Source: an uncultured Lachnospiraceae bacterium (GTDB lineage: Bacteria > Bacillota > Clostridia > Lachnospirales > Lachnospiraceae). Taken from it: 49,208 bases of DNA. The stretch's first letter is position 1; every line of letters begins with the position of its first letter. A program made the translations under genes and the position numbers. Under the pieces are notes generated by a model. The model made no database searches. It was given only the letters and a program-made list of their open reading frames with translations, and was not told where the DNA came from. The stretch is from assembly GCA_947566705.1 (NCBI GenBank), contig CANOLA010000014.1, forward strand, positions 1 to 49,208. The letters are read 5' to 3'. This document shows positions 1 through 16,522 of this stretch, piece after piece.

Positions 1-3000
1 CCCTCTGCATTTACTGTTCCATAAATATCTATGCTCTTTGTTTCTTCATTGTATTTAATGTCCGTAATCTGCGCCAGAAGCTGCCAGTCCGCAGTCTTTC
101 CGGTTTCAATGGAAAGCAGGATGCCGTTTGTGGATACATTTCCTGCCGCATCCGCTGCCGTCAGAAGGATTTCGTAGGTGCCGTCCGTAAATCCGGAAAT
201 ATCCAGCGTTCCCAGAACATCCTCATGTACCGGGCTGCTGCTTTCCTTAAATACATGGTAATCGCTGGCCGTGTCTTTTTTGTATGCCAGTGTATATTTT
301 CCAAACTCTGTCTCATCCTCCGCAGTTCCCTTAATCTGAACATTAAAGTCCAGTTCGGAACCGGATTTCGGGGAGGTGATTTCTGCAGTCGGCGCAGTAA
401 CGTCGCGGTCATCCACTACTTTGACAGTGACTTCCTTTTCGCTGCGGTTTCCGCCGATGTCCACGGCCTCTGCCTTTATGGTAATGGTTCCTGCCTGCGC
501 CGGGGTATAAAATGTACGCCCGAAAGAGTCCAGTTCCTTTTTTCCATCCACATACAGGGCAAAACTGTCAGTTCCGTAATCATCAAGGGAATATCCGTCA
601 ATGCGCAGCTGTTCGCCCACTTTGACTTCCGGCCTGGATGTTATGATAAAAATCTCCGGAGGTGTATTATCCTTGATTTTCACATATTCCAGGAAATCCC
701 TTGTTTTTACAACTGCCACTGCCGGGAAGGACAAAGTCCCCTCCAGATCCTTTACCTGGTATTTTACAAGATATGTCTCACCGGCCGTGACACTGTTCGG
801 CATCCTTCCCTCGGTCCACTCCGCGTCCTTTACATTTTTGTATGCAAAGTATTCCTTCCTGATTCCCTTTCTGGAATCCTTTGGATGGTCCGCATCCTTT
901 GCGGAATACGTTGTTTTTACAGTACAGGTCTTACTGTCTTTTTTGCTTTTCGTAACTTTAACATCAATATCAGCAGCCGGCCTGCTCTGGACGATTACAA
1001 GTTTTTTATATTCATCCGTGCCGGACCATCTGCGGTATTCATCCAGCGCATCATTGTCTCCGGCCGGATTGTCGCGGACTTTCAGCCTGATGACATAAGC
1101 GCCGGTTTCCGTAAAGGTTGTTATCGGTTTGTCTTCTTTCCGTACGATATGTTCCTTTTTTCCGGATACATCCCCGAATACGGTCGGGTCGTATTCGTAT
1201 TCCCACTGTTCCTCATAAACCGGGTCATTTTCCGCGTCACTGTAATAGCTGCCATAGGAAATAATGTCATCCGTGGTCAGGTATTTTCCCACGGAATAAT
1301 CCTTTGCAAGAACAGAATCCGTCAGGTAATTATTCACCACATCCATGGTTGTGCCTGCCGTGCCGATATCCGTATACATCCCGCCGCAGCCGGCTGCATT
1401 CAAAAGCTCAGTGAACTGGTCCTCATTATTTTCATTCCCGATTCCAATAAAAGCTGCTTCATTCTGTACCAGCGCAGCCGCAAGGTCTGCGGTCATCTCC
1501 TCATTGGCAAGCTCCGGCACTTCTGCCCTGCTTAAGTTGATGACATAGTGTGATGCACCCGGTCTCCAGTCATATCCGGACACAATATCGGAAAGGCTTT
1601 TTCCGGTAACCGTTTCCATGGTGATATTTTTAAAGGTAAAATAGGACTGCTGGTTACATCCGTGATATCCATGGCTAATCATTGGGCCAAATCCATACCC
1701 ATAGTCATTTTCCGGCAGGATAAAATTATCAATGACAAGCGTGTCCCCGTCCCATACCGAAATGGTCTTTTTATCCACTGCAATCTTAAAATGATGGTTG
1801 TCATACAAATTGCCAATCCGGACGGTTCTCAGCTGTCTGCCGGCATTATGTACCCATCTGAAATATCCGTTCCGGAACTGCTCCAGTTCACTGCAGTCAA
1901 TCTGCACGAGACGAAGCCCGTCCCCTGCCACCAGAATACAGAATCCCCGGATGGTATTCTTTTCCATGGACACTGTCGTATTGAACAGAAAACCGCCGCC
2001 CTCCATGCTGTGCCAGTCGGTTCTGTCTCTCTGTAAATCAAACTCGAAAACCTTCCGTCCCGGACTGTCATCCGGAACATACAGGAAATCCTTGATTGGC
2101 GCACTTGAATACCCGACCATCTTTATGTCGCTTCCTTCATAGAGGATATGTTTGTCCAGTGTCGGAAGATAAGGGTCTTTGTAGTTATAGTGGTCAAATT
2201 CCTCCCACGCAAACGTATCCTGCGCCGTCAGTGTTTTCGAGGAAGCCACATCAATCCTCGCATCCACGCCCTTTTCCTCAAGTATTTTCTTTAACGCCTC
2301 CGCCTTTGCGCTGTAGATACTGGCAGTCTCCTGATCCGCATCCCCCAGCGTAAACACAATATCCGCAGACTTTGACTTTTCCACGGACAGCCTTGCTTCC
2401 GGCGCTTCGTTCCCTACTTCAAAAACGCATGCGCTGCTGTTATATGCAGACGTATCCCCGCGTAAAAAGACTTCATCCCCTATAAGCTTTGGAATCGTAT
2501 CCGTAAACGTCTCAACAACAGTAAGTACTACTTTGTACTTTCCGACTTTGTCCGTATTGATTACAAGCTCGGTCTTATTGCCGTCGCTGTATACCTCTGC
2601 CTCACTGTCCTCAAATTTTCCGTTATTGTTTTTATCATAGTAAACGGTCCAGATTCGCTGCCCGATTTCATCCCCGTCCGGTGAAGCGGATGCATCCGTA
2701 AGTGTAATTTCTGCCTGTCCCTTTTTGTCCCTGGAATAATAATTCTCTCCAAGTGCGAAAGCTGCCAGGGGATTTAAATCCTTTTCAATAACGATTTCCT
2801 TTGTAACAGTATAATCCACTTTTCCGGTCGTAACAGTAACACTGACCTGGTAAGTTCCGGCTTTTCTGAAAATCATTTCCTTGTGGAATGCAGAAGAAAC
2901 GTCCTCGTCAAATGCATAAGCAGACTCTTCTTCACTTCCGTCCTTCGTAATCTTCCAGACCGTGTCGTCTTTTTTTATATATTCGGTATTCTGGATTTCT

Positions 3001-4289
3001 TCCACATCCAGAACAAGCTTACGGTTTTCCTTCCGGTTTCCCTCCACCTTAAGGTCGATTTCCGGCTGGAACAGAAAATCCAGCATGTCAAAATCATACG
3101 GTCCGGCGTTGATATTGATCAGCGTTCCGTTAATCCGTACCTGTTTTGCAATGATTCGTCCGTTCAGGGTGAAATTGTTTGCGTTTACGCTGACGCAGCC
3201 ATTTGGTGCATATAAAACGGCATCTAAGTTAATTTCTGAACCGTTCAGCGTAATGTTTCCGTTTTCCGACGCCAGAAGTACGCGGGAGTCATCCGGGGTG
3301 GTCAGCGAGCCCACATTATATGTGATGGAATCCTTTGCATAAATGATTCCCTTTCCCAGAAAATACGTGGCGTTAAAACTGACGTCACCTTCCACAACAA
3401 CCGGCTTTTCCACGACCAGGGCGTTGCTGTTAAAATTCTTTGTTCCGTCATAAACCTTTCCATGCTCTTTACAGTAATGATATACCTCACCGGTAATATC
3501 CGGCATTTCCACGGTATCCGCCTGTTCCTTTCTGGCGGATACTTTCTGGCAGTCCGCGCCGCTGGAGGTTGTGATTTCCACAGTATCCGCCGCCTCAACC
3601 GTGCCGTTTACAGCAAGCTTTGTACCCTGGTAATAAAATCCCCGGTTACTGTGGACATCCCCTGTAATATTTGTTTCATTTGTATAAAGGGAAAGCGTTT
3701 CATCCCCTGAGGTAAAAAGGGCATAATTTAATCCCTTCCACTTTTCCGGAATGCTAAAGGCGGTTTCCACCTTAGTCCCGGCTTCGTCATTTCCGCCGTC
3801 CTCTGTATGATCCTCTTTTTCGTCTTCTGTTCCGGTTTCCGGCGGAGTGTCTTTCACCAGCCGGATATCTGCCGGGGCATCCGGCTTTTTGTCTGTTCCA
3901 TGTGCGGTAAAACCGAAAGAAACTGACTGTCCTTTTTCTATTACGCTGTTATAGTCCTTGCATCCGACAACGCTTTTCCCATCCTCCGAGGAAAGGATAT
4001 CTGCGTTCCAGATATTGTCAATGATTCCATCATAAACTAGGGAAAGCTGCCAGTTTGCCTGCAGTTCTTCTCCGTCATTTTTAATGGTAATATCCGCGTT
4101 CACATAGTTGTCCCATGTGCTGCTTTCTTTGTAAATAATGGTGCATCCTTCGGATTCATAAACATGCTCCGATGTCTGTGTCCCGTTTTCCACAGACGCA
4201 TACGCGCTCTGCGGCACAAGTCCCAGCAGCATTGCCAGAACCAGCACAAAAGACACGATTCTTTTTCTCCATGTCCTCATTTGTTTCAT
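1..4289 (-). CDS. Giant exported multidomain protein, CBM2-like N-terminus and Ig-like repeats (3' end outside window)
   Basis: The frame is open from an ATG at 4289 (ribosome site AGGAGAAAG) to the left edge, about 1429 codons with no stop, so the C-terminus is missing. Residues 1-31 are a Sec signal peptide (KRIVSFVLVLAMLLGLVPQ, then SAYA). Residues 45-132 resemble a family 2 carbohydrate-binding module: central WQLSLVYDG, then GQSVSFGFTAHG. An acidic linker follows, then a region of short beta repeats (about 195-395: NITGDVHSNRGF, NGTVEAADTVEI, APNGCVSVNA) that could form a beta-solenoid. Further on are Ig/PKD-like domains and a segment containing WHSMEGGGFLFNTT that may be a beta-sandwich. 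The last visible domains (PTAEITSPKSGSEL, LGTLDISGFTDGTYEILLTA) resemble the beta domains ahead of RHS/YD repeats. Whether RHS repeats and a toxin tip follow cannot be seen. It has its own LytTR-type promoter. Confidence 0.85.
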   Translation of the reverse strand, partial: MKQMRTWRKRIVSFVLVLAMLLGLVPQSAYASVENGTQTSEHVYESEGCTIIYKESSTWDNYVNADITIKNDGEELQANWQLSLVYDGIIDNIWNADILSSEDGKSVVGCKDYNSVIEKGQSVSFGFTAHGTDKKPDAPADIRLVKDTPPETGTEDEKEDHTEDGGNDEAGTKVETAFSIPEKWKGLNYALFTSGDETLSLYTNETNITGDVHSNRGFYYQGTKLAVNGTVEAADTVEITTSSGADCQKVSARKEQADTVEMPDITGEVYHYCKEHGKVYDGTKNFNSNALVVEKPVVVEGDVSFNATYFLGKGIIYAKDSITYNVGSLTTPDDSRVLLASENGNITLNGSEINLDAVLYAPNGCVSVNANNFTLNGRIIAKQVRINGTLININAGPYDFDMLDFLFQPEIDLKVEGNRKENRKLVLDVEEIQNTEYIKKDDTVWKITKDGSEEESAYAFDEDVSSAFHKEMIFRKAGTYQVSVTVTTGKVDYTVTKEIVIEKDLNPLAAFALGENYYSRDKKGQAEITLTDASASPDGDEIGQRIWTVYYDKNNNGKFEDSEAEVYSDGNKTELVINTDKVGKYKVVLTVVETFTDTIPKLIGDEVFLRGDTSAYNSSACVFEVGNEAPEARLSVEKSKSADIVFTLGDADQETASIYSAKAEALKKILEEKGVDARIDVASSKTLTAQDTFAWEEFDHYNYKDPYLPTLDKHILYEGSDIKMVGYSSAPIKDFLYVPDDSPGRKVFEFDLQRDRTDWHSMEGGGFLFNTTVSMEKNTIRGFCILVAGDGLRLVQIDCSELEQFRNGYFRWVHNAGRQLRTVRIGNLYDNHHFKIAVDKKTISVWDGDTLVIDNFILPENDYGYGFGPMISHGYHGCNQQSYFTFKNITMETVTGKSLSDIVSGYDWRPGASHYVINLSRAEVPELANEEMTADLAAALVQNEAAFIGIGNENNEDQFTELLNAAGCGGMYTDIGTAGTTMDVVNNYLTDSVLAKDYSVGKYLTTDDIISYGSYYSDAENDPVYEEQWEYEYDPTVFGDVSGKKEHIVRKEDKPITTFTETGAYVIRLKVRDNPAGDNDALDEYRRWSGTDEYKKLVIVQSRPAADIDVKVTKSKKDSKTCTVKTTYSAKDADHPKDSRKGIRKEYFAYKNVKDAEWTEGRMPNSVTAGETYLVKYQVKDLEGTLSFPAVAVVKTRDFLEYVKIKDNTPPEIFIITSRPEVKVGEQLRIDGYSLDDYGTDSFALYVDGKKELDSFGRTFYTPAQAGTITIKAEAVDIGGNRSEKEVTVKVVDDRDVTAPTAEITSPKSGSELDFNVQIKGTAEDETEFGKYTLAYKKDTASDYHVFKESSSPVHEDVLGTLDISGFTDGTYEILLTAADAAGNVSTNGILLSIETGKTADWQLLAQITDIKYNEETKSIDIYGTVNAE

Positions 4290-4320
4290 AACTTTCTCCT
4301 TTGTATTTTTTTCTTACAAT

Positions 4321-4388
4321 AAAATACCGCCTGTCACATGCCCTTGCAAGACAAATGTAACGAGCGGTCGAATTTTGTAACGAATGGT
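4321..4388 (-). promoter_or_regulatory. LytTR-type direct repeats plus promoter for the giant exported protein
   Basis: Read on the minus strand, two 13-bp direct repeats, ACCATTCGTTACA (4376-4388) and ACCGCTCGTTACA (4356-4368), lie exactly 20 bp apart. Six bases later comes a -35 box TTGCAA (4344-4349), a 17-base spacer and a -10 box TATTTT (4321-4326), followed by the ribosome site and ATG at 4289. Two direct repeats with a period of 20-21 bp just upstream of -35 are the known operator form of LytTR regulators. The same layout occurs at 15797-15864. The LytTR gene is immediately upstream, so it is the obvious candidate activator; that link is inference. Confidence 0.8.
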
Positions 4389-4424
4389 AATATTTTTCTT
4401 ATTTAACCGGAATTTCCCAGTATT

Positions 4425-5135
4425 TCAATGTGCCATCTCAGTGACAAAGTCCCAGTATGCCCTGTCAAAATCTTTTTTCATGCGCCTGCTGCTGGGGATG
4501 CGGCTTCCATCCGTCAGTATGACCTCTTCACTGCATTGTTTTACATATGCAAGGTTGACATAATAACTTCTGTGACAGGATGCAAAGCCGTAACCCTCCA
4601 GTTCCTCTTTCCACTCACCATAACCTTTACTGTTGCAGAAAATATCCCTGCAATCCCGCGTTGTCCGGATTCTTGAATATCTTCCGGCGGCCTTTACATA
4701 CACAATATCCTGAATATGTACAGCCACAATCCCCTGCACGGTTTCATATGTCACCACTGTATTTTTCATCTGCCAGTCATACATAACATCATCCATTCTC
4801 TTTTGAAATGCCTCATAGGTAACCGGTTTTACCAGAAACCCGAATACATTTTTTCCAAAGGCCTCCTGACAGCTCTCCACATGGCTGGTACAAAAAATAA
4901 TTCGGATATTCGACACCCGTCTCTGGAAATATTTCTTTACATCCAGTCCACTGCAGCCCGGCATTTCAATATCCAGAAAAAGAATATCAGGTTCCTCTTC
5001 CTCCAGAACTTCTTTTCCGGAATAAAATTTCTGTATGTCTGTTTCCTCTTTTCTTTCCTGAAAATATTGACGACAGAAGTTGTATATCTCATCAATGTAT
5101 CTGTTTTCATCATCACAAATGCCTATTCTCAGCAT
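4425..5135 (-). CDS. LytTR-family response regulator
   Basis: The 236-residue protein is of usual length for an AgrA/LytR-type regulator. Residues 1-120 form a receiver domain: acidic pocket ICDDE (7-10), phospho-acceptor Asp55 in LFLDIEMPG and Lys103 in FLVKPV. Residues about 125-232 form a LytTR DNA-binding domain, recognised from IVYVKAAGRYSRI, FASCHRSYYVNLAYV and the ending ILTDGSRIPSSRRMKKDF. The start overlaps the end of the upstream kinase gene by 7 bases, implying translational coupling and a cognate pair. Its likely targets are the twin direct-repeat promoters at 4321-4388 and 15797-15864, because LytTR proteins bind such repeats and no other regulator is encoded nearby. Confidence 0.93.
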   Translation of the reverse strand: MLRIGICDDENRYIDEIYNFCRQYFQERKEETDIQKFYSGKEVLEEEEPDILFLDIEMPGCSGLDVKKYFQRRVSNIRIIFCTSHVESCQEAFGKNVFGFLVKPVTYEAFQKRMDDVMYDWQMKNTVVTYETVQGIVAVHIQDIVYVKAAGRYSRIRTTRDCRDIFCNSKGYGEWKEELEGYGFASCHRSYYVNLAYVKQCSEEVILTDGSRIPSSRRMKKDFDRAYWDFVTEMAH

Positions 5136-6412
5136 AATATTTCTCCCTGCATATTCAGTATTATCTTAATTTCAAACACGCGTTCCGTTACATCAAAAAA
5201 GTATTTTCCCCCAAGTTTTTCAACCGTATTTTTTATATTATAAATTCCATATCCATGTCCCTGCTTTTCTTCCTTTGAAGTAATTCTTCCCAGTCTGTCC
5301 ACATCTATTTCCCACTCAATAGGGTTGCGGACTGCAATCACAATATTCCCCTGGTAACATCCAAGTTTCATTTTAATCAGTTTTTCTGATTTCTCCAGTC
5401 TTTCGCATGCTTCAGCAGCATTGGACACCGCATTGGAAAATATGGTGCACAAATCATAATCTGATATACCCGTATTTGCAGGCAGTACGCCTTCACACTG
5501 AATCCGGATACCCTTATGCCCTCCCATTGCATGGGAAATTACAGCGTCCGCCATCTCATTTCCCACCAGGTTTATGACCTGCACTTCATAAATACCGGCA
5601 TCCTTCATCCGGTTCAGATAATTCCGGGCATCCGCATATTTTTGGTTTTTCAGATAATGTTCAAGGGAACTGATATGGGATTTCATATCATGTTTGATAC
5701 GGCGCACCTCCTGCATATGGTCAGAAATCTCCTGGAAATGGTCTTTTGACATCTGCAGGTATTTATCCTTTATTGCGTTTTCCTCCTGAATTCCCTGGCG
5801 GATGATATCTATGTATATAATCAGAATACCCAGAAAATATACAAAGACGTTTACAATTGCATTTAATATTTTTACTGCGGTAATACCGCGCCCCTCCATG
5901 CCCTGCGTGAAATAATCCACAAAATAAATTATTCCGTTGTCCAGAAAACCGCACAGTCCGGCTGTAAATAAAAAACGGCTGCGGGCTTTTCGGATATTGT
6001 ACACAAGACTTTCATTTTTTCTGATTAATTTTCCGATATATAGGATAAGAAAAATCGTTATTATTTCTGCAAAAATCTGTTTTAATTCTTTGTGGGCATT
6101 CCCAGCAGCAAATATAACCAGTTTAATTGGATAATATATTACTGTATAATACGAAAAGGAAAAAAGGAATACCGAACAACAACGCTGTAAATCTGTCTGG
6201 AACAAAAATATAGCAACAACTAACTTTAAAAGTAAACATATAACTATAAACAGACCTATTTTATCTGATAAATAAAAAGTAAGGATTGATAAAGCCAGCA
6301 TTCCCATAGAAATCATAATTCTCTTTTTATTTTCTGTTGTTTTTATCTGGCAAATCTCATATATAAAAAAATATATACCTATACTTCCCAAAAACATCCT
6401 AAAGGTTTCCAT
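5129..6412 (-). CDS. AgrC-like membrane sensor histidine kinase (GHKL type)
   Basis: The N-terminal ~210 residues hold about six hydrophobic segments, as in peptide-sensing kinases of the AgrC/HPK10 class. The H-box is RRIKHDMKSHISSLEHYL with the phospho-acceptor His at about residue 241. A GHKL ATPase domain follows, with N-box SNAVSNAAEACE and G-box GHGYGIYNIKNTVEKLGG. I chose the ATG at 6412 because GGGGGATTTT precedes it; an in-frame ATG lies 10 codons upstream. The gene overlaps the LytTR regulator downstream. Upstream, after 96 bases, lies a 20-codon ORF with a strong ribosome site that could encode a signal peptide. No AgrB-like protease or AgrD-like precursor is present. Confidence 0.93.
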   Translation of the reverse strand: METFRMFLGSIGIYFFIYEICQIKTTENKKRIMISMGMLALSILTFYLSDKIGLFIVICLLLKLVVAIFLFQTDLQRCCSVFLFSFSYYTVIYYPIKLVIFAAGNAHKELKQIFAEIITIFLILYIGKLIRKNESLVYNIRKARSRFLFTAGLCGFLDNGIIYFVDYFTQGMEGRGITAVKILNAIVNVFVYFLGILIIYIDIIRQGIQEENAIKDKYLQMSKDHFQEISDHMQEVRRIKHDMKSHISSLEHYLKNQKYADARNYLNRMKDAGIYEVQVINLVGNEMADAVISHAMGGHKGIRIQCEGVLPANTGISDYDLCTIFSNAVSNAAEACERLEKSEKLIKMKLGCYQGNIVIAVRNPIEWEIDVDRLGRITSKEEKQGHGYGIYNIKNTVEKLGGKYFFDVTERVFEIKIILNMQGEILC

Positions 6413-6508
6413 AAAATCCCCCGTTTCATAAATACACATCATATTACATTCATATCAATAATATAATTGTATCATAGAAACAAGGGATTTTCCATTTTTT
6501 AACTGGTA

Positions 6509-6571
6509 TTATCTCTTTCCAGCTATTATTTCCCAGATTCTTATCCAGATTGGGTCTGCTGAATAATACAT
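6509..6571 (-). CDS. Tiny ORF, candidate signalling or membrane-active peptide
   Basis: An ATG at 6571 is preceded by AAAGGAGGTGAGGAGA, one of the strongest ribosome sites in the window, and opens a 20-codon frame ending in TAA: MYYSADPIWIRIWEIIAGKR. The peptide is rich in aromatic and branched residues with a basic tail, so a short amphipathic helix is plausible. It lies 79 bases after the RTX gene stop and 96 bases before the AgrC-like kinase gene, where pheromone precursors of peptide-sensing systems often lie. I know no named family for it. It could be an unmodified exported peptide pheromone, a phenol-soluble-modulin-like peptide, or only a leader ORF for the kinase gene. The strong ribosome site is observed; the role is inferred. 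Confidence 0.6.
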   Translation of the reverse strand: MYYSADPIWIRIWEIIAGKR

Positions 6572-6650
6572 TCTCCTCACCTCCTTTCCCATTCATCCAT
6601 CCACCCCATATCCGCGGACAGATTCCTATTTTGGATTATTTATTTTCCAC

Positions 6651-9600
6651 TTACTCCATCACTGCAGTTGTAAATGCAAGCTTCACCGGATTTTCCTCAT
6701 TATCATATGAAAATCCCGTTCCATCTGCAAAATTCACATTAAAATTCCTGCAGTTTTCCGAAGTAAAATAATCCCTGATAACAAGCCTGTCATCCGAACC
6801 GGCAAATGCAATCGTCAGGTTATTCCAGTTCGTGCGGATGAACATCATTTCGGCTGCCTGAAAACCTTCACCAAAAGATATGGTATTTATTCCCTCCGAA
6901 TCAATAATGGTATCTGTACCCCAGCCGGTATTAAAAATATAAGTATCGTCCCCGGCACCGCCGTAAAGGCAGTCGTCGCCTTCTCCGCCGTCAAGCACAT
7001 CATTTCCTTCGTTTCCATAGAGCTGGTCGTTTCCCGCACCGCCGTATAGTCTGTCGGCCCCTTTTTTGCCGTTTAGATTATCCTCACCTGCTTCCCCGAA
7101 AATGGTAACACCTTTATCATCCATTGCCTCAATGTACTCACTTTCATCAGTTCCATAAATCGTCCTGAGCGGACTGTCTGCCGCTGCGGCATGAATCCTG
7201 CATCCTTCAAATTCCAGGTAAAAATTCCGGTTTGCCTCGGCATTAAAAAATCCTTCAATTACAATTCTGTCATCCGTTTCCCCGAACGTAACCGTGATAT
7301 TATTCCAGTTCGTGCGGTAAGCCTTAATCTGGTCCGGTGAATAACCGGATATCTTAATCGTATTTTCCCCGCTGTCATCACCAATGGTATCCGTTCCATA
7401 TCCTTCTTTAAAAATATAGGTGTCATTTCCTTCTCCGCCGTAAAGAAAATCGTTATCCTCCCCGCCGTCCAGAAGGTCGTCGCCTTTCAGCCCAGTCATC
7501 CGGTCGTTTCCTTTTCCGCCGTAAAGGAAGTCATTTCCGTCACTCCCCACAAGCTGGTCGTCCCCGTCCTGTCCGACTTTTGTTACTCCGTCATCATAAA
7601 CTGACGGCATATACTCACTGTCATCGGTTCCGTAAATTGTTTTCAGAGGGCTGTTTTTTGCAGCGGCATCTACCACGGTTCCATCAGAAAACACAAGCTT
7701 ATAACCCCTTGCATTTTCATTTACACAGTAATTTTTAAGCTTCAGCCTGTCCTCATGTCCATCGAACGTCACCAGTAAATCATTCCAGTTGGAACGGTAT
7801 GATTTTATGCTTTCTGCGGTTAATCCATCACCGAATACTATGGTATTTTCCCCTTCATTATCCTGTATGGAAACCTCCCCGTATCCCTGCCGGAATACAT
7901 AAGTATCATCGCCGCTGCCGCCATCCGCGAAATCCTTTCCTTCGCCTGCGTCTATATAATCATTTCCATTTCCGCCATTGATATAGTCGTCCCCGGCGCC
8001 TCCAAAAACCACGTCGTCCCCGCCTGCAAAAAGAAGCTGGTCATTTCCATCGTCACCAAATACATATTCCTTATCATCTGTACCAATGATCCGGTCGTCG
8101 CCTTTTCCGCCTGCTAAAATTTCCTTTCCGTCATTTTCAAAATAATCCCCGTTTTCAGAGCCGGAATAGTAACTACTGTTTTCACCTGAAAGATAATTTT
8201 CCAGCGGAACCTTATCCTCTCCTTCCTGAATAAAATACTTTTTGGAATGATCCATGTACCCCTGGATTACCAGACGATCTTTCGTGTCTTTTATGGAAAT
8301 CACGGCATTGTCCCCTGCCGGACTGACTTCCAGATTCTGGACAGCAGTCTCTCCTGCAAGCCGGATCACAGATTCACCTTCGGAATCACTGATAATGTCC
8401 GTGCCATAATCCGTTCCCCAGACATAGGTATCATTTCCTTCACCGCCGTAGAGGAAATCATCCCCCGTGCCGCCGTCCAGAATGTCATCCCCGTCACCGC
8501 CGTAAATGATGTCTTTTCCGCCACCGGCAGAAATACTGTCGCTGCCGCCATTTCCGTAAATAACATCATTGCCATCTTTTCCATACAGTGTGTCATTTCC
8601 GTCAAATCCATAAACAGCGGAACTGTCCAGCACCGCCTTTAAGGTATTATCCTCATCATTCCCGTAAATAAAGCGGAACGGGCTGTCCGGGTCAGCAGCA
8701 TGCATCTTTACTTTTGTAAATTCAAGCATATAATTCTGATACTTTTCTCCCCTGCAGAAATCCTGGATTACAAGGGAGTCATTTGTTCCCCTTATATATA
8801 CGGTCACATCATAGTCCCCCGTACCGTTTACCAGTAAATCCTCTGGTTTTAGACCCTGAAAACGGATGGTATTTGTTCCGCTGCTGTCAGTAACTGTATC
8901 ATGCCCGAATCCCTTTGCAAATATATAGGTATCATTCCCGTCCCCGCCGGAAAGACGGTCATTACCGCCGCCTCCGCTTAAGGTGTCATCTCCCCCTTTG
9001 CCGGATATGAACTCATTCGCATTCGTCCCCTGGTAATTATCATTACCGTCCGTTCCCACATAGGTGGTTCCCGAACCTGAAAGGCTGACAATATCGCGGC
9101 AGTGCTCTGACAGTTCTGAAAATTCCCTGCTGAATTCCTTATAATAATCCGTGTCATGGATACTGTCATAAGCACGCAGATACATTCCAAGGTCATAAAG
9201 CAGGGCATCTGCGTTTTTGCCGCTTTCCAGTTTTGACTGGATCAGGGTACTCAGTGTAAGGTAGTTTAGTTTTGTATCCCCCTTTTCATCCTGGTATTCA
9301 AATACAAACTTTAAATAAGTTCCAAACTTGGAATAAAGATTCAGGACATTGAAATAATCATCCTCTATACGGCCATAAATTTCTTTTAACATCCGGGCGG
9401 CATTAACATTCGGATTAGTGCCGCCGACACCTTCAAATTTCCGGCCCATGAATTTTTCAATTACTTTTAAGTCTCTTGCGTCAATGTTTCCGCCGCGGCT
9501 GTTTTGTTTTAAATCTGTTGCACCGGTCAGATAATATAAAATCTCTTTTGTACAGAACCGTTTGTGTGCGATATCATCCGATTCTGCAAATTCGCAGCAA

Positions 9601-11360
9601 AGGGAGTAAAGTGTTCCGCTTTCATCCCGTTCTATCGCAGTTGCAAGATCCGGTACATCCCCAGCCGTAACGGTGTCTCCATGCGTTGTATCTGAGGAAT
9701 TGACCGGGAACCAGAACTCACTAATTTTAGTTACCTTCTTATTTCCTGCCTTTTGAATAATTACCTTTGCACTCTCTGCAATGCGGGCTCCCGTTTCTTC
9801 ATCAACCACATTGTTTTCCTCATGCTCCAGGCTGATGGATATGATTCCCAGCTCATCCAGCGTATGCAGTTCACCCGCCTTTGATTTCCCGTTATGGTCC
9901 GTGTCAGTCCATACCAGAAGACTGGTAAAGGCGGAATCCTCCGAATCAATTAATTTGTCATGGTTTTCATCCAGTTCCCCGAGCGCCTCAAAACCGGATG
10001 CAGAGATTGTTCCATCCTGCAGGATTACCTGGTCTCCAAACAGTTCCCCTCCGTTATCAATTTTTCCATTTTCATTCCTGTCCAGCGCAAGAAATCCATC
10101 CTCAGTGTCAATCCACGCGGTCCTTTCCGCAAATCCGTTGTTATCCAGGTCAAAGTATACCCCGTTTTTTACGTTGTGCAGCTTAATGCCCTTTTCCCCC
10201 AGATCGATAATCAGTGGATCTCGCGGTGGCTGCGCCTCTCCCGCTTTCTCATAATCATCATTTTCTTCCTGAATCAGCCGGATAATATCGTCTACAGCCT
10301 CTTCGTCATTTTCGGTAAGCTCATGCATGATCTGCTCTACTGCTTCGTCCGAACCAAACATCTCCATCAACAGCAAAAAGTCATCAACGGCTGCATTTAC
10401 TTCTGCCGCTTCTACGGTTTCCGGGCTGGCGATGTATTCCGTTAATCTAGCTATAATTGATGTACCTACAGCCACAATTGTGATGGATAAGGAATTTGCA
10501 GCCTTTTTTTCGATTAGTTTTTCATGGTAAGCCATCCATGCAGCCACTATTCCAACAATTGTGGTTGCCCCTGCTGTGGTAATACACACTACAGTTTTCG
10601 GATCAATATTTCCTGTCACATCTGCGACTGCCTTATCTTTTTCCGGAAGGGTAGCCGGAGCACGCTCTGCTTCCTCCTGCTTTTGTTTCTCGCGCTTTTT
10701 GGCGGTGCGTTCAAATTCATAGATAATTAATCCGTTGTTTTCTACAGTATATGTAATTAAATAGGTGACATCCTCATAGTATTCTCCTCGGTCATATGTA
10801 TCTGAATATGTAATTTCTCCGCCGTTAATCTGGTTTCCGCCAGTATCAAAGTTCTTATCAGAATCCACATATCCCTTCAGCTGGACTTCCGCTTTGGCTT
10901 TCTTACCTGCATCTTTCCAGTAGGAAACCGGTTTTACCTCCCATAAATATATTTTTCCATCAATTTCCATACCGATATCTGCCCTGCCCTGCTTTCCTGT
11001 CGGTTTTCCATTTTTATCCTTATATATGATGGGAATCTCTTTTCTCACACCCTTTTCCTTATAATTAAAAACTATATCATCCTGCACCTTGTTATGGAAA
11101 AAATTCCATGCAAGACCATCCACATGGTGTGCAACATACCATTGTTGTTTTAATACTGACGAAGATTTAGCATCTTCCCTCGCTTCCGCTGACGCTTTCG
11201 CCCGGCTTTCCGCAGCTGCAGCTAAATCTGACAGAAACTCCACTGCCTTCACACTGCTGTCTGTTTCTGCCTGCACCTGTGACACTGGTACTGACGTCAC
11301 GCTTAATGCGATTACCAGTATCATGGCAATCCACTGTTTCCATCTCTGTTTTATCCTCAT
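6651..11360 (-). CDS. Exported RTX/EF-hand calcium-binding protein with nuclease-like N-terminal domain
   Basis: This 1569-residue protein begins with a Sec signal peptide (1-31: basic start, hydrophobic core WIAMILVIALSVTSV, end QVQA). Residues about 70-220 contain GRADIGMEIDGKIYLWEVK, i.e. Asp128, Glu141 and Lys143 followed by Gln160, as in PD-(D/E)xK nucleases. Two hydrophobic stretches follow (about 257-277 and 290-305). Residues 381-560 match the calcium-binding region of FrpC-like RTX proteins: RDPLIIDLGEKGI, then DLDNNGFAE, DRNENGKIDNGGELFG and DENHDKLIDSED loops. In FrpC the corresponding Asp-Pro bond is cleaved autocatalytically with calcium; here it is Asp381-Pro382. A helical region precedes five RTX blocks (about 766-1569). 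The ribosome site AAGGAGGAAGAACC supports the start. It is last in the operon from 15739. No type I exporter is encoded nearby. Confidence 0.9.
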   Translation of the reverse strand: MRIKQRWKQWIAMILVIALSVTSVPVSQVQAETDSSVKAVEFLSDLAAAAESRAKASAEAREDAKSSSVLKQQWYVAHHVDGLAWNFFHNKVQDDIVFNYKEKGVRKEIPIIYKDKNGKPTGKQGRADIGMEIDGKIYLWEVKPVSYWKDAGKKAKAEVQLKGYVDSDKNFDTGGNQINGGEITYSDTYDRGEYYEDVTYLITYTVENNGLIIYEFERTAKKREKQKQEEAERAPATLPEKDKAVADVTGNIDPKTVVCITTAGATTIVGIVAAWMAYHEKLIEKKAANSLSITIVAVGTSIIARLTEYIASPETVEAAEVNAAVDDFLLLMEMFGSDEAVEQIMHELTENDEEAVDDIIRLIQEENDDYEKAGEAQPPRDPLIIDLGEKGIKLHNVKNGVYFDLDNNGFAERTAWIDTEDGFLALDRNENGKIDNGGELFGDQVILQDGTISASGFEALGELDENHDKLIDSEDSAFTSLLVWTDTDHNGKSKAGELHTLDELGIISISLEHEENNVVDEETGARIAESAKVIIQKAGNKKVTKISEFWFPVNSSDTTHGDTVTAGDVPDLATAIERDESGTLYSLCCEFAESDDIAHKRFCTKEILYYLTGATDLKQNSRGGNIDARDLKVIEKFMGRKFEGVGGTNPNVNAARMLKEIYGRIEDDYFNVLNLYSKFGTYLKFVFEYQDEKGDTKLNYLTLSTLIQSKLESGKNADALLYDLGMYLRAYDSIHDTDYYKEFSREFSELSEHCRDIVSLSGSGTTYVGTDGNDNYQGTNANEFISGKGGDDTLSGGGGNDRLSGGDGNDTYIFAKGFGHDTVTDSSGTNTIRFQGLKPEDLLVNGTGDYDVTVYIRGTNDSLVIQDFCRGEKYQNYMLEFTKVKMHAADPDSPFRFIYGNDEDNTLKAVLDSSAVYGFDGNDTLYGKDGNDVIYGNGGSDSISAGGGKDIIYGGDGDDILDGGTGDDFLYGGEGNDTYVWGTDYGTDIISDSEGESVIRLAGETAVQNLEVSPAGDNAVISIKDTKDRLVIQGYMDHSKKYFIQEGEDKVPLENYLSGENSSYYSGSENGDYFENDGKEILAGGKGDDRIIGTDDKEYVFGDDGNDQLLFAGGDDVVFGGAGDDYINGGNGNDYIDAGEGKDFADGGSGDDTYVFRQGYGEVSIQDNEGENTIVFGDGLTAESIKSYRSNWNDLLVTFDGHEDRLKLKNYCVNENARGYKLVFSDGTVVDAAAKNSPLKTIYGTDDSEYMPSVYDDGVTKVGQDGDDQLVGSDGNDFLYGGKGNDRMTGLKGDDLLDGGEDNDFLYGGEGNDTYIFKEGYGTDTIGDDSGENTIKISGYSPDQIKAYRTNWNNITVTFGETDDRIVIEGFFNAEANRNFYLEFEGCRIHAAAADSPLRTIYGTDESEYIEAMDDKGVTIFGEAGEDNLNGKKGADRLYGGAGNDQLYGNEGNDVLDGGEGDDCLYGGAGDDTYIFNTGWGTDTIIDSEGINTISFGEGFQAAEMMFIRTNWNNLTIAFAGSDDRLVIRDYFTSENCRNFNVNFADGTGFSYDNEENPVKLAFTTAVME
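6930..9065 (-). repeat. Five RTX nonapeptide blocks inside the exported calcium-binding protein
   Basis: The C-terminal half of the protein contains five cycles. Each has a run of GGxGxDxLY/I nonapeptides (for example YGGEGNDTY, YGGAGNDQLYGNEGNDVLD) ending in GNDTYIF or similar, then a spacer domain of about 75-90 residues with conserved parts such as DSEGINTISFGEGF, RTNWNNLTIAF and DDRLVI. RTX runs fold as calcium-dependent beta-rolls in known proteins. Cycles 4 and 5 are most alike (both have YGTDxSEY and RTNWNN), suggesting the most recent internal duplication. Confidence 0.88.
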
Positions 11361-11390
11361 GGTTCTTCCTCCTTGTTCTCATTCATAATT

Positions 11391-12140
11391 TTAAAATTCC
11401 AGTCCGTAACCCCGTAAAATTGCCTGATTCGCTGCCTTTCGTCTTTCCATTTCCTCCAGCACCTTCTGGTGGTATCTTTCATCCTCCGTGTACTTTCGGA
11501 ATATGGCAACCTGCTCCTTCATAAGCTGTGCATGTTTCTCTTTATACCTACTCTCTATCCTTTCCACGGATTTTCTCCACCGTTCCTCAAACTTTTCCAG
11601 AGTATACAGTTTGTAATTCAGCATCCCCTCCTTTTCATCACATTCATACTCAAAATCAAGGTCATACACATAAAATGAAATCGCCCCCAGTATCTCCATA
11701 CAATCCTTTAGAGTTTTCACCTGGTCCATCCGTGGCAGGGCATTTTGTATCACAGCCTCTGCGGACCGTTCCAGCTCCTCCATCATGTCCACGTCATTTC
11801 CACCGACCCGATAATGGAGTCCCGGTTTCAGCGTGCTGTCATCCCGGTACTGGAATGTCACGTGTCCTGACGCATCCCAGACGTAATTCTTCATCCAAAT
11901 CTCATACCGCGGGTTTCCATCCAAATTTATTTTTGGGCGGTAGACCGTCGCCAGTCCCCACACTACATTAAAGTCTTTGTACGGCCTGACAGACGTGCCG
12001 GCGTCTGCATACGATACCGCATGGATAATTTCATCCCCCACCATCCGTACCAGATATGGTCTCTTTCCTTTAATCTTCCGGAACCCGTAGGGCGCCAGTT
12101 TCTCTGCATAAAGATGCTTAAATGCTGTATTAAATGTCAT
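11391..12140 (-). CDS. Uncharacterised immunity-like protein, single-domain paralogue A
   Basis: The 249-residue protein has no signal peptide or membrane segment and is probably cytoplasmic. It starts FNTAFKHLYAEKLAPYGF then IKGKRPYLVRMVGDEI, continues through YRPKINLDGNPRYEIWMKNY and GGNDVDMMEELERS, and ends in a charged helical region (RKYTEDERYHQKVLEEMERR) closing with ILRGYGLEF. The opening resembles DUF4304-like proteins, a group found in immunity settings, but this is a loose resemblance. It is about 85% identical by eye to the gene directly upstream and to the second domain of the 441-residue paralogue. It lies 30 bases upstream of the RTX gene. An immunity or chaperone role for a toxin is inferred from the tandem array, not demonstrated. 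Confidence 0.8.
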   Translation of the reverse strand: MTFNTAFKHLYAEKLAPYGFRKIKGKRPYLVRMVGDEIIHAVSYADAGTSVRPYKDFNVVWGLATVYRPKINLDGNPRYEIWMKNYVWDASGHVTFQYRDDSTLKPGLHYRVGGNDVDMMEELERSAEAVIQNALPRMDQVKTLKDCMEILGAISFYVYDLDFEYECDEKEGMLNYKLYTLEKFEERWRKSVERIESRYKEKHAQLMKEQVAIFRKYTEDERYHQKVLEEMERRKAANQAILRGYGLEF

Positions 12141-12160
12141 TTTTGTTCTCCTTCATCACT

Positions 12161-12910
12161 TTAAAATTCCAGACCATAGCCCCGTAAAATTTCCTGGTTA
12201 GCCGCCTTGCGTCTCTCCATTTCCTCCTGCACCTTCCGGTGGTATCTTTCATCCTCCGTGTACTTTCGGAATATGGCAACCTGCTCTTTCATTATTCGGG
12301 TACGTCTCTCTTTGTCCCTGGCTTCTACACTATCCACAGTTTTTTTCTTTCGTGCTGTAAATTCTTCAAGAGTATACAGTTTGTAATTCAGCATCCCCTC
12401 ATCACTATCGTATTCTCCCCCAAGATCATAATCACGGACATAAGCTGCATCTGAACCCAATATTTCCCTGCAGTCCTTTAGGGTTTTCACCTGGTCCAGC
12501 CGTGGCAGGGCATCTAGTATGACAGCTTCTGCAGACCGTTCCAGTTCTTCCATCATGTCCACGTCATTTCCTCCAACACTGTAATGAATTCCCGGTTTCA
12601 GCGGGCTGTCATCCCGGTACTGGAATGTCACGTGTCCTGACGCATCCCCGACATAATTCTTCATCCAGATCTCATACCGTGGGTTTCCCTCCAGATTAAT
12701 CTTTGGACGGTAAACCGTCGCCACTCCCCATACTACATTGAAATCCTTATATGGTCTGACAGATGTACCGGCATCCGCATACGAAACCGCTTGAAGTATT
12801 TCATCCCCCACCATCCGCACCAGATAGGGTCTCCTTCCCTTGATTTTCCGGAACCCGTAAGGCGCCAGTTTCTCTGCATACACGTGCTTGAATGCTGTGT
12901 TAAATGTCAT
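12161..12910 (-). CDS. Uncharacterised immunity-like protein, single-domain paralogue B
   Basis: This 249-residue protein is a close tandem copy of the one just downstream (20 bases between stop and start). It shares the opening FNTAFKHVYAEKLAPYGF, the core KINLEGNPRYEIWMKNYV and the ending EILRGYGLEF. Differences cluster around residues 160-200, where it reads DAAYVRDYDLGGEYDSDEG while its neighbour reads FYVYDLDFEYECDEKEG. Such local variation in an otherwise conserved array would fit changing partner specificity, but the partner is unknown. Same strand, same operon, no export signal. Confidence 0.8.
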   Translation of the reverse strand: MTFNTAFKHVYAEKLAPYGFRKIKGRRPYLVRMVGDEILQAVSYADAGTSVRPYKDFNVVWGVATVYRPKINLEGNPRYEIWMKNYVGDASGHVTFQYRDDSPLKPGIHYSVGGNDVDMMEELERSAEAVILDALPRLDQVKTLKDCREILGSDAAYVRDYDLGGEYDSDEGMLNYKLYTLEEFTARKKKTVDSVEARDKERRTRIMKEQVAIFRKYTEDERYHRKVQEEMERRKAANQEILRGYGLEF

Positions 12911-12930
12911 TTTTATTTTCCTCCATCACT

Positions 12931-14256
12931 TTAAAACTTCAGTCCATACCCCCGCAAAATTTCCTGATTAGCCACCTTTCGTCTCTCCATTTCCTCCAGC
13001 ACCTTCTGGTGGTATCTCTCATCCTCTGTATACTTTCGAAATATGGCAACCTGCTCTTTCATAATTTGGGTACGTCTCTCTTTGTACCTGGCTTCTACAC
13101 TCTCCACAGATTTCTTTTTTCGTGCCTCAAATTCCTCCAGAGTATACAGCTTGTAATTCAGCATCCCCTCATTTTCATCACATTCATGCTCAAAATCAAG
13201 GTCATACACATAAGCCGCCGTCGGTCCCAGTATTTCCATACGATCCTCCAGGGTTTTTACCTGGTCCAGTTTTGGCAGTATTTCCTGCTTTACCACCTCC
13301 ACGGACCACTCCAGTTCCTCCATCATGCCCACATCATTTCCGCCAACCTGGTAGGAAACCCCCGGTTCCATTACATATTCATTCCGGTATTCGAAATACG
13401 GACCGTTTCCGGGGTCTCCCATGCCATCCATCCAGTTGGCATCCCGCGGATTTTCCTCCAGGTCTATCTTTTTGCGGTAAACCGTTGCCACACCATATCT
13501 TACAATAAAGCTTTTGTACGGCCTGCATGCCCAGCTGTTTGCATATGCGATTACATGGGCAATTTCATCCCCTTCCATCCGCACAAAATACGGTCTTTTT
13601 CCCTTGATTTTCTGAAACCCATAAGGCGCCAGTTTCTCTGCATACAGCCGCTTGAACGCCGCGTCAAAGGACGGCGTCCGTTTCCCCTTTCTAAAATAAA
13701 GGGCAGTGCAGAATCCGTTTCCGTCCTCCCCGGCGCTGCCCGCGTCCATCCCAAGAAGCGGTCCCAGCTCCCTCAGTCCGTCCTCCGCATAGGTATGGGA
13801 GCCTGCAAGCGTTTCCTGGAACCGCTCCCAGGTACAGCCTTTTTTCAGCAGGGGTTCCCAGTATTTTTTCATTCCCCTGGGCGCATCTTCATCCCCCAGG
13901 TATCCCGAAACGTCCCCCAGCGCCACCATGTCCGTCTCCTCCCTGCTTCTGGCATAAAGTGCAAGCGTCGCAAAATCACTGTCCACCAGTTCCATGCCAA
14001 TGCAGCTTGTCTGCAGGCTTTCCGAAAACCAGCCCGCATCCTCCATCAGGGCGTCCCGGTCGCTTTCGTAGGCATCCCTTTCCAGAGTCACCCAGTCGCT
14101 GTTTTCAGAAAAAACAAGCACATAGCCGCTTCCGTTTTTTTCCGTTGCGCGCTTGTACCCACGCTTCTCCATGCTCATAGAAAAATCCTCGGTAAACTCT
14201 TCTTTTGTCATCTGTTTTTCGTTGCGAATAAAAACTGCAGTGCTAAAATTGCCCAA
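12931..14256 (-). CDS. Uncharacterised immunity-like protein, two-domain paralogue C
   Basis: The 441-residue protein has two parts. Residues 1-185 form a separate domain (FSTAVFIRNEKQMTKEEF, MEKRGYKRATEKNGSGYVL, VDSDFATLALYAR, YWEPLLKKGCTWERF). Residues 195-441 repeat the 249-residue module of the two downstream genes (FDAAFKRLYAEKLAPYGF to EILRGYGLKF). Translation appears to start at a TTG (14254-14256) with GGAGGTTTTCAA in front; no ATG start is better placed. It is cytoplasmic by sequence. It lies 20 bases upstream of paralogue B and downstream of the 467-residue paralogue D. Function unknown. Confidence 0.8.
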   Translation of the reverse strand: MGNFSTAVFIRNEKQMTKEEFTEDFSMSMEKRGYKRATEKNGSGYVLVFSENSDWVTLERDAYESDRDALMEDAGWFSESLQTSCIGMELVDSDFATLALYARSREETDMVALGDVSGYLGDEDAPRGMKKYWEPLLKKGCTWERFQETLAGSHTYAEDGLRELGPLLGMDAGSAGEDGNGFCTALYFRKGKRTPSFDAAFKRLYAEKLAPYGFQKIKGKRPYFVRMEGDEIAHVIAYANSWACRPYKSFIVRYGVATVYRKKIDLEENPRDANWMDGMGDPGNGPYFEYRNEYVMEPGVSYQVGGNDVGMMEELEWSVEVVKQEILPKLDQVKTLEDRMEILGPTAAYVYDLDFEHECDENEGMLNYKLYTLEEFEARKKKSVESVEARYKERRTQIMKEQVAIFRKYTEDERYHQKVLEEMERRKVANQEILRGYGLKF

Positions 14257-14335
14257 TTGAAAACCTCCTTATATTATATTTCATGTTTAAAATTAGAAAC
14301 TTTCTTACCATATTTAAAATATTTATTATATTTTT

Positions 14336-15739
14336 TCATATTTCCAGCCCATAACCCCGCAACATTTCCTGGTTTTTCTTTTTCCTCCGTGCAAGCTCGG
14401 CAAGTGCCTTTCTATAGATTTCAGGATTATTATAGATTTCATCCCTCCTTCTTACAGTCCCAGCCCTCCAGCTCTCCAATCCCCTGCGCTCTTTCTCATA
14501 AGACCACATTAACTTGATTCCGTTTTTCTCCTGTTGCTCCAGTTCATTAAAAAATCTTTTGTATTTCTCTACAAGATTATCATGATTATCCGTCTGTATA
14601 TATAAAAGCCCTTCATTCTCATCAAGCTTTCCGAAATCATCCTGTTCCCCATTGTATACTGGCACGTTCAGAACTGACCCATAAAAAACTCTAAAATAGT
14701 CAATGCAGGCATCTAAATCTGTTACTTTGTCTAGTTTAGGTATCATTTCCCGTTTTGTTGCGTCCATGGCATTCTTCATTTTTTCATACAAATCCTCCCC
14801 ATTACCCTCCTGATAAGAATATCTAAACATTGACATACAATACTCATAATTATAATCTTTTTCACTTTTATGTAATGTTGAATAATAATCACTAAGCAGC
14901 AAAAGCCAGTTTGTATTATCTCCCGGACTACATGTCAAATTGATTGCCCGCCTGTATACCGTAGCCACACCACCCCATACGGAAAATGATTTATATCCCT
15001 TCTCCCCGCACCATTCACTCTTGCAGGCAATCACATGAACGATCTCATCCCCGATTACCCTGACGAGATACGGCTGTTTTCCTTTAATCTTAACAAATCC
15101 ACGTTCTTTCAGCCCTTCCCCAAACACCTGCTTAAACACCGTATTTAATGACGGCATCCGTTTCCCTTTCTGAAAATACAAGTTCACCGTATCCTGCCCG
15201 TTTCCGTCCCTGTCCTGACCTCCTGCTCCAATCCCCAGAAGCGGTGCCATTTCCTCCAGTCCGTCTTCCGCATATACATACTCTGCGGTCAGTACCTTCT
15301 GAAAATCCTCCCACGTATACCCTTCCTTCAAAAGCGGTTCCCAGCATTTTTTCAGTCCCCTTGACGGTTCCCCGTCCCCCCAGTAACCCGATGCATCCCC
15401 CAGCACTGCCATGTCCGTCTGTTCCTTTGACCGGCTGTACAGTTCAAGGACTGCAAAGTCACTGTCCACAAGTTCAGCGCTGACACAGTGCGTCTGCATG
15501 GCTTCAGAAAACCATCCCGCATCCTCTGCATGGGTAAAACCGCCATCTCCATATGCTGTTCTTCTGAGCATCACCCAGTCACTGCCTTCTGAAAAAGCAA
15601 GTGCATATTTACTCCCACTTTTCTCCGTTGCACGCTTGTACCCACGCTTTTCCATGCTCTTACAGAATTCCTCTGCAAACTCTTCCTTTGTCATCTGCTT
15701 CCCGTTGCGGATAAAAACCGCAGTACTAAAAGTCCCCAA
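14336..15739 (-). CDS. Uncharacterised immunity-like protein, two-domain paralogue D (first gene of operon)
   Basis: The 467-residue protein has the same N-terminal domain as paralogue C (FSTAVFIRNGKQMTKEEF, VDSDFAVLELYSR, CWEPLLKEGYTWEDF) and a more divergent second domain (LNTVFKQVFGEGLKERGF, IKGKQPYLVRVIGDEIVHVI, ending EMLRGYGLEI). It also uses a TTG start (15737-15739), with a clear GGAGGTTTACAG ribosome site. It is the first gene after the LytTR-type promoter at 15797-15864, so it probably sets transcription of the whole array through the RTX gene. Its middle region (about 280-400) has diverged most from the other paralogues. Function unknown. Confidence 0.8.
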   Translation of the reverse strand: MGTFSTAVFIRNGKQMTKEEFAEEFCKSMEKRGYKRATEKSGSKYALAFSEGSDWVMLRRTAYGDGGFTHAEDAGWFSEAMQTHCVSAELVDSDFAVLELYSRSKEQTDMAVLGDASGYWGDGEPSRGLKKCWEPLLKEGYTWEDFQKVLTAEYVYAEDGLEEMAPLLGIGAGGQDRDGNGQDTVNLYFQKGKRMPSLNTVFKQVFGEGLKERGFVKIKGKQPYLVRVIGDEIVHVIACKSEWCGEKGYKSFSVWGGVATVYRRAINLTCSPGDNTNWLLLLSDYYSTLHKSEKDYNYEYCMSMFRYSYQEGNGEDLYEKMKNAMDATKREMIPKLDKVTDLDACIDYFRVFYGSVLNVPVYNGEQDDFGKLDENEGLLYIQTDNHDNLVEKYKRFFNELEQQEKNGIKLMWSYEKERRGLESWRAGTVRRRDEIYNNPEIYRKALAELARRKKKNQEMLRGYGLEI

Positions 15740-15796
15740 CTGTAAACCTCCATTACATTCCTATATCACGTATCCTGAATCTTTCCCTATATTCCT

Positions 15797-15864
15797 AACA
15801 TAACGCCCACCTCATTCCTATGCAAGTAAAATGTAACGAGCGGTCGATATTTGTAACGAACGGT
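15797..15864 (-). promoter_or_regulatory. LytTR-type direct repeats plus promoter of the five-gene RTX operon
   Basis: On the minus strand the repeats ACCGTTCGTTACA (15852-15864) and ACCGCTCGTTACA (15832-15844) are 20 bp apart. After 6 bases come -35 TTGCAT (15820-15825), 17 bases and -10 TATGTT (15797-15802). The leader to the TTG start is about 55 bases. Spacing is identical, element by element, to the promoter at 4321-4388, although the sequences between the elements differ. This implies selection on the elements. The likely activator is the LytTR regulator at 4425-5135 (inference). Confidence 0.8.
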
Positions 15865-15928
15865 CGTTTTTTCCTACTTCCTGGGAAAATTTACTCCCTT
15901 TTGTACAGCCCAAAAAACTGCAGAAAAA

Positions 15929-15959
15929 AAGCAGGAAACCTTTTCCTGGTTTCCTGCTT
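15929..15959 (-). terminator. Rho-independent terminator after the GNAT gene
   Basis: A perfect 12-bp stem, AAGCAGGAAACC paired with GGTTTCCTGCTT, encloses a 7-base loop. On the minus strand it is followed by a run of seven T. It ends the acetyltransferase transcript and insulates the LytTR-regulated promoter that follows. Confidence 0.88.
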
Positions 15960-15977
15960 CAATATGCCATCATCTAT

Positions 15978-16406: not shown

Positions 16407-16500
16407 AGCATATCCCCCATTTCCTTTTTCTTCAACGGACCTGTCAGACTATTATTCCATAAATAAAAACACCGTCCGCCATATCCCCTTTCAGGAATAA

Positions 16501-16513: not shown

Positions 16514-16522
16514 ATCCCTTTT

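Follow-up and report, generated by a model that had tools for sequence, protein, structure and literature searches.

A twenty-codon frame beside an AgrC-like kinase as a candidate leaderless peptide signal in a Lachnospiraceae bacterium

What does an AgrC-like kinase sense when no AgrB gene lies beside it? This question was raised by the window, the whole stretch of 49,208 nucleotides analysed here. A reading made from its letters alone (the sequence-only reading) had pointed to a 20-residue frame placed between a large exported protein and such a kinase, and had proposed that the frame supplied the signal in a new signalling arrangement. From its anatomy, its recurrence beside related kinases and the direct repeats that accompany it, we consider it fairly likely that the frame encodes a leaderless peptide which serves as the signal in a three-component system that induces itself. 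The window peptide would probably be sensed by the neighbouring membrane kinase, as its ligand.

The peptide gene and its neighbours

The frame was real and lay on the minus strand. Its neighbours agreed with the sequence-only reading, with an exported RTX-repeat protein upstream and a GHKL kinase and a LytTR regulator downstream. The features concerned were, in the order of the minus strand:

14336..15739, minus strand: gene 1 of the run, 467 aa, paralogous to genes 2-4 and without a Pfam family
12931..14256, minus strand: gene 2 of the run, 441 aa, paralog
12161..12910, minus strand: gene 3 of the run, 249 aa, paralog
11391..12140, minus strand: gene 4 of the run, 249 aa, paralog
6651..11360, minus strand: gene 5, exported RTX-repeat protein, 1569 aa, with PF00353 (HemolysinCabind, 11 stretches) and PF06594, and a signal-peptide-like start by reading
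6577..6587, minus strand: ribosome site AAAGGAGGTGA, exact 11-mer, 5 nt before the peptide ATG
6509..6571, minus strand (ATG 6571-6569, TAA 6511-6509): peptide gene, 20 codons, product MYYSADPIWIRIWEIIAGKR, candidate leaderless signal
6466..6494, minus strand: promoter-like site between peptide gene and kinase, TGGAAA-17-TACAAT with TG before the second hexamer, by consensus scan only
5129..6412, minus strand: AgrC-like GHKL histidine kinase (PF14501), 427 aa from the likelier ATG at 6412, the open frame extending to 6442
4425..5135, minus strand: LytTR response regulator (PF00072 and PF04397)
3..4289, minus strand: large exported protein (by reading), behind the second repeat described below and running off the contig end

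A small peptide gene, an HPK and a LytTR regulator thus stood together. The order along the strand was four paralogs, the RTX protein, the peptide frame, the kinase, the LytTR regulator and a second large exported-like protein. The genes of the run that ends with the peptide gene were separated by 20-79 nt, and no exporter was found beside the peptide gene.

The ribosome site had been called perfect, and the 11-mer AAAGGAGGTGA at 6587-6577 was indeed exact and the sole exact copy in the window. On both strands of the window, two frames of 14-26 aa carried a match of at least 7 nt to AAAGGAGGTGATC near their start, and the peptide frame was one of them. A second in-frame ATG lay 7 codons 5' of the peptide ATG, with the ribosome site falling within that extension. 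No double-glycine leader was recognised, the frame having 7 open codons upstream, and both Cys and a precursor tail were absent from the product. An AgrD-like precursor was rejected on the missing Cys and on the lack of AgrB nearby. The peptide had also been described as aromatic and amphipathic. It is aromatic, while the helical moment of residues 8-20 was 0.18, under the shuffle mean of 0.37, and the amphipathic alpha helix was dropped as unsupported. Its core, IWIRIW, departed from the commoner [DE]W[LI]. No Rfam family reached its gathering score in positions 1-17000 of the window.

The kinase was modelled with AF2 (mean pLDDT 83), giving 7 TM-like helices followed by DHp and ATPase parts. 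The best PDB fold matches were the cytoplasmic parts of S. aureus AgrC (6e95 and 6e52), which covered the cytoplasmic part of the model only. A PDB sequence search with a 3-row kinase profile returned no match, and NCBIfam held no specific name for the kinase. Across the window's assembly there were 34 matches to PF14501, 32 of them above the cut-off, and at least two AgrB genes (on C69 and C2, one of them beside another kinase), the count being a lower bound, like that of the repeat sites below, as the assembly is 84% complete. Neither AgrB gene was in the window. The statement that there is no AgrB/AgrD pair held for the window, as judged by an AgrB profile. Many AgrC-like kinases share the genome with only these two AgrB genes, which leaves most of them without an assigned signal.

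The four tandem paralogs (15739..11391) were 29-82% identical to one another, and no Pfam family scored above cut-off in those scanned. With lengths of 249-467 aa, they directly precede the RTX-repeat exported protein, and a fifth paralog stands behind a repeat site on another contig (C136). They may confer immunity to the exported RTX protein or act as its partners. In that protein (1569 aa, 6651-11360), part of the N-terminal region, with its IYLWEVKP context, resembled a nuclease-type fold by reading; matches in Pfam and NCBIfam were confined to the repeat part.

Direct repeats ahead of the exported-protein genes

Direct repeats with a period of ~20-22 were found ahead of the putatively regulated genes, the peptide gene included, each followed by a promoter-like pair:

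15928..15960, minus strand: terminator-like hairpin just upstream of repeat 1, by consensus scan
15833..15864, minus strand: LytTR-type direct repeat 1, ACCGTTCGTTAC-N8-ACCGCTCGTTAC, heading the run of genes 1-5 and the peptide gene
15797..15825, minus strand: promoter-like pair after repeat 1, TTGCAT (15825-15820), N17, TATGTT (15802-15797), by reading
4357..4388, minus strand: LytTR-type direct repeat 2, ACCATTCGTTAC-N8-ACCGCTCGTTAC, heading the large exported gene
4321..4349, minus strand: promoter-like pair after repeat 2, TTGCAA (4349-4344), N17, TATTTT (4326-4321), by reading

The two repeats scored 24/24 (15864-15833) and 23/24 (4388-4357), and scores of at least 22 occurred in 0 of 20 shuffles. 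The -35/-10-like pair started 7 nt after each repeat, with a spacer of 17 nt, a placement suited to LytTR control. An assembly-wide search allowing up to 3 mismatches returned three sites only, again a lower bound, and none with the reversed pattern as control. The third site (C136, 3 mismatches) lay 42 nt before a 313-aa paralog of the run genes, which was 37% identical to gene 1 (E 1e-66). Repeat 1 stands at the head of a run whose last gene is the one for the peptide, so that this gene appears to be part of the adjacent regulator's regulon. Its distance from this putative promoter and repeat is ~9.2 kb. Within the RTX gene there were two terminator-like matches on this strand, and such matches were no commoner than in shuffles (8 versus 8.5). 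By consensus scan, 34 promoter-like sites were counted in the region against 23.7 expected; given the site between the peptide gene and the kinase, the kinase-regulator pair may have its own promoter.

Repeats of this kind also accompanied related kinases. The repeat RCCGYTYRTTMC-N8-RCCGYTYRTTMC, with a spacing of 20-21, was present 0-64 nt past the kinase stop in 11 loci (L003, L004, L058, L059, L043, L061, L119, L062, L063, L042, and L045). When the 200 nt upstream of 39 curated small frames (described below) were compared with themselves, requiring at least 9 matches in an 11-mer, period 20 was found in 23 and period 21 in 13, partly in the same frames, and the remaining periods between 14 and 30 in 0-3 frames each; some AT-rich frames had a best self-match unlike a LytTR site. 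The window frame, whose repeat lies elsewhere, was left out of this count, and repeats had not been a criterion in selecting the frames, several of them having already been seen by then. Half-sites differed by system, as in TGTCGTTYRTGG (L196, ~2865-2900), ACCGATAAAAG (L163, ~3610-3645) and GCCCGTTCAGG (L090, before the small frame). With the period constant at 20-21 and the half-sites differing, the regulators might each read a DNA word of their own.

Small frames beside related kinases

Short frames were sought beside related kinases in 397 genomes of the family and in further regions, and small Trp-rich ones turned up repeatedly across Lachnospiraceae. A strict pattern at the DNA level that combined ribosome site and frame, applied to 60 genomes, matched the window alone and was discarded as too narrow. 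The nearest kinase, in G046 (L003), was 34% identical and was followed by a 19-codon frame, MLLSASSEIWEWIWGLLRN, with the site AAAAAAGGAGGTGAGG; a C39 bacteriocin exporter (TIGR01193) came directly after the frame, and then small proteins with GG-leader-like starts (by reading). The order was repeated in G014 (L004), where the gap held MNNTSMNSDVWLIIKKLLGL with a weaker ribosome site and a Peptidase_C39 exporter came directly after the frame. Among 62 genomes of the genus, these two were the only ones with a full-length close kinase, and no close ortholog of the window frame was found. Further kinase-linked frames were MYFANDNTIWEWILSILNGGR (G240, L058), MYFSTGESLWKLLKELFGW (G273, L063) and MSTYSWEFWEWLKQFFK (G133), and G212 carried two, MPYGLNWDWLIGLITGNGGKEEE and MMYYSLDVWEWLAGIFFGDEEE. 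In most relatives with a frame it lay downstream of the kinase; it preceded the kinase, as in the window, in L070, L072, L190, and C52 of the window's own genome (= L102). Other candidates in that genome were MICSGLKILLEFVSNLWK on C98, MIENLYEWWKRHW on C52 and MFLGIPLFPFFK on C9, and on C28 the inner ATG of a listed frame would give MVYGSNDFLELLRRLLGSG (by reading). The genes behind the frames varied while the small frame recurred (10 loci).

Several further features were seen at these loci. In L080, tandem small frames at 1038-1100 (MVFYICDLTDWLKWILGIHK) and 1828-1884 (MVFYICDLTDWLKHIFGF) had an identical 20 nt before each start. Kinase-like proteins of 204-234 aa in L005, L006, L007 and L008 matched the catalytic part (33-37% identity) and left no room for a TM sensor. 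A 207-aa gene behind the frame in L010 was considered as AgrB and was not AgrB by Pfam. Of 141 full-length kinase loci, 9 were flagged for AgrB, with a profile seeded from one AgrB and with short loci among those scanned.

The recurrence was measured in 117 gaps downstream of kinases, taken from 153 distinct kinases after 36 were dropped (locus end less than 250 nt from the kinase, or gap below 60 nt). In 23 of the 117 gaps there was a frame of 14-26 aa preceded by a site of 7 nt or more, 21 of the frames containing Trp, with the frame size and site criteria picked after the first hits and those hits kept within the 117. The antisense strand of these gaps held one such frame (one with Trp), dinucleotide shuffles gave a mean of 1.4 (0.4 with Trp), and gaps behind other genes, drawn from the same loci, had a frame in 6 of 214 (3 with Trp). 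The Fisher p values were 5e-7 for all frames of this kind and 7e-8 for the Trp class. A 6-nt site gave a weaker contrast (31/117, with 4 in antisense, 7.8 on average in shuffles and 16/214 in other gaps). Among kinases fetched once the criteria were fixed, 6 of 9 had a frame, some of these loci being orthologs of one another. Coding constraint was seen in two ortholog pairs of frames (L196/L197 and L163/L168), which had 12 base differences distributed 3/0/9 over the codon positions (p 0.004), with no indel, and 8 synonymous against 4 non-synonymous codons; the L196 and L197 kinases were 90% identical.

We then describe the peptides themselves from 39 curated frames (40 with the window), hand-picked as Trp/Phe-rich with a plausible ribosome site, ortholog pairs counting twice. 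The 40 peptides were 13-33 aa long (median 19); Trp occurred in 37, at least two Trp in 29, and Cys in 4. The motif [DE].?W[LIFMV] was present in 21 of the 40, where 2000 shuffling trials gave it in 6.1 on average and in 14 at most, and 13 of the 40 had a significant helical moment. Since 36 of the 40 frames had at most 20 open codons 5' of the ATG, a leader is hardly possible. When 37 kinase-peptide sets were compared in 659 pairs, the similarity of the peptides tracked that of the kinases (r 0.19 for the sensor and 0.25 for the core, permutation p 0.0002 each), which shows that peptide and kinase are co-inherited. Specific co-evolution of peptide and sensor was not demonstrated, the core correlating at least as well as the sensor.

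Frames were not universal. The 14 closest kinases (score at least 234) had a frame in 8 (the window, L003, L004, L058, L059, L043, L063, and L042, where the kinase is interrupted), and one (L061) ended at the contig edge. No frame was found near L060, L119, L062, L194 or L195, that is, 5 of the 13 close kinases with enough sequence. A repeat without a frame was present in L119 and L062, and in L194 by reading. The frame was likewise absent at the corresponding place in G511, an ortholog with 80% identity that belongs to the G212 group. In the 14-18 kb around the five frameless kinases and G511 there was no convincing candidate: in G372 one was already in the loose census and one was a GTG frame at the far side, and of four in G511 one contained Trp, ~9 kb from the kinase. 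The loose census of full-length kinases without AgrB gave a candidate in 54 of 132, with false candidates among the 54, and none in 78. The sequence-only reading had held that kinase-regulator pairs lacking a conserved frame would speak against it; its proposal largely survived, frames recurring well above controls, with coding constraint and upstream LytTR-type repeats, and gave way where close kinases were frameless.

Roles considered for the peptide and known systems

A signal is one of several roles that such a frame could have. The peptide could remain in the cell that makes it, bound to the membrane as a small feedback regulator that would attach to the kinase and turn it up or down after induction. 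Small kinase partners of this kind are MgrB and SafA. The absence of a leader and of a neighbouring exporter in the window, the hydrophobic and aromatic peptide, its putative control by the kinase's own type of regulator and its co-inheritance with the kinase all agree with such a role. We nevertheless regard it as possible but unlikely, as the peptides are very short, with a median of 19 aa, and most of them by reading show no clean hydrophobic TM stretch, and as the G046 and G014 frames lie beside a C39 exporter, in the slot of the pheromone in the part of the ubericin K report consulted (PMC8515946). The peptide could instead be an output, a leaderless membrane-active product resembling a bacteriocin or a phenol-soluble modulin, induced by the regulator while the kinase senses something else. 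Being aromatic and small, it lies in a putatively induced run with exported proteins; helical moments were significant in about a third of the curated peptides (13/40) and L080 has tandem copies. The window peptide, however, lacks helical amphipathicity, the small frame recurs while the other genes behind it vary (10 loci), and its similarity follows the kinase, so that a pure output appears rather unlikely.

Two other explanations have less in their favour. A leader or attenuator frame controlling translation or transcription of the kinase gene would suit the position just upstream of the kinase in the window. It was disfavoured by the frame following the kinase in most relatives that have one, by the promoter-like site between window frame and kinase, and by the empty Rfam scan of positions 1-17000, and we hold it highly improbable. 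That the frame is a chance opening in a spacer would fit the frameless kinase relatives and the lack of a close ortholog of the window frame, constraint having been tested in relatives only. The gap controls, the third-position bias in two pairs, the shared motif (21/40 versus 6.1), the upstream repeats and the exact 11-nt ribosome site leave chance a very slim prospect.

The leaderless-signal reading was compared with known systems. With three-component bacteriocin systems, Blp, plantaricin and ComCDE among them, the window shares a GHKL kinase, a LytTR regulator and repeats before the regulated genes. The same applies to ubericin K, whose locus, in the part of the report consulted (PMC8515946), is ordered regulator, kinase, pheromone and C39 exporter, the order also seen in G046 and G014. 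The ubericin pheromone is listed there as a leader-containing 27-aa member of the ComC/BlpC family (PMC8515946), whereas the whole frame here is ~20 aa, lacks a recognisable leader and, in the window, has no adjacent exporter. Behind the C39 exporters of G046 and G014 (L033:12295-18136 and L034:12738-16680) are small proteins with MCYxGALxxPSSYxVMxxEEM..EGG-like starts, which by reading are probably GG-leader bacteriocin-like precursors. Agr (AgrBDCA) has in common with the window an AgrC-type multi-TM GHKL kinase and a LytTR regulator; it differs in that AgrB is not beside the window kinase and that Cys, found in 4 of 40 peptides, does not provide a conserved thiolactone residue. The phenol-soluble modulins and delta-toxin of staphylococci are short, leaderless outputs under AgrA-type control that form amphipathic helices. 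A short leaderless peptide under AgrA-type control would be common to both, and the amphipathic helix is what the window peptide lacks.

Leaderless signals as such are already known, and in this respect the proposed arrangement was not new. In the parts of PMC10518010 consulted, LCPs are mostly 8-10 aa and leaderless, and are sensed by RopB, a cytosolic receptor of the Rgg type. By anatomy the window peptide is likewise very short, hydrophobic, aromatic and leaderless, and LCP genes lie beside the gene of their receptor (PMC10518010, in part); here the peptides are 13-33 aa and the adjacent receptor-like gene encodes a membrane kinase, not Rgg/RopB. The main text of PMC10518010 contains no occurrence of "histidine kinase", "Lachno" or "Clostridi". 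What looks new is the pairing of a leaderless peptide with a membrane histidine kinase and a LytTR regulator. A search of an open library yielded no paper in which a membrane histidine kinase has a leaderless peptide as its partner, which is weak evidence of novelty with most subscription papers and preprints outside the search.

If the frame encodes a leaderless signal, translation from its strong ribosome site would yield a peptide that leaves the cell by some route and reaches the TM sensor of the kinase, where it would bind. The 7-TM AgrC-like kinase would then activate (phosphorylate) the LytTR regulator, which would bind the 32-bp direct repeats at 15864 and 4388. Repeat 1 would drive, as one message, the four paralogs, the exported RTX protein and, last, the peptide gene, and repeat 2 the other large exported protein. 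More peptide would mean more kinase activity, a positive loop by which the exported proteins would be turned on at density. Since no processing would be needed, a peptide of 20 residues can be made synthetically and tried directly.

The tiny peptides of the relatives, placed under the kinase's own type of switch, suggest a little-studied chemical language without an export leader. Genes of ~20 codons are easily missed by annotation, and for this reason such a class of peptides could go unnoticed. The triad of peptide, kinase and repeat offers a rule for locating the cognate signal and regulon in many Lachnospiraceae. We lean, cautiously, towards a widespread and unnamed class of leaderless Trp-rich signals (~13-33 aa) that would be sensed directly by 7-TM AgrC-like kinases, without a processing protease and often without a dedicated exporter, and that would be autoinducing through LytTR repeats, one genome perhaps running several channels. 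In the window's genome, candidate channels were found on C14, C98, C52, C28 and C9.
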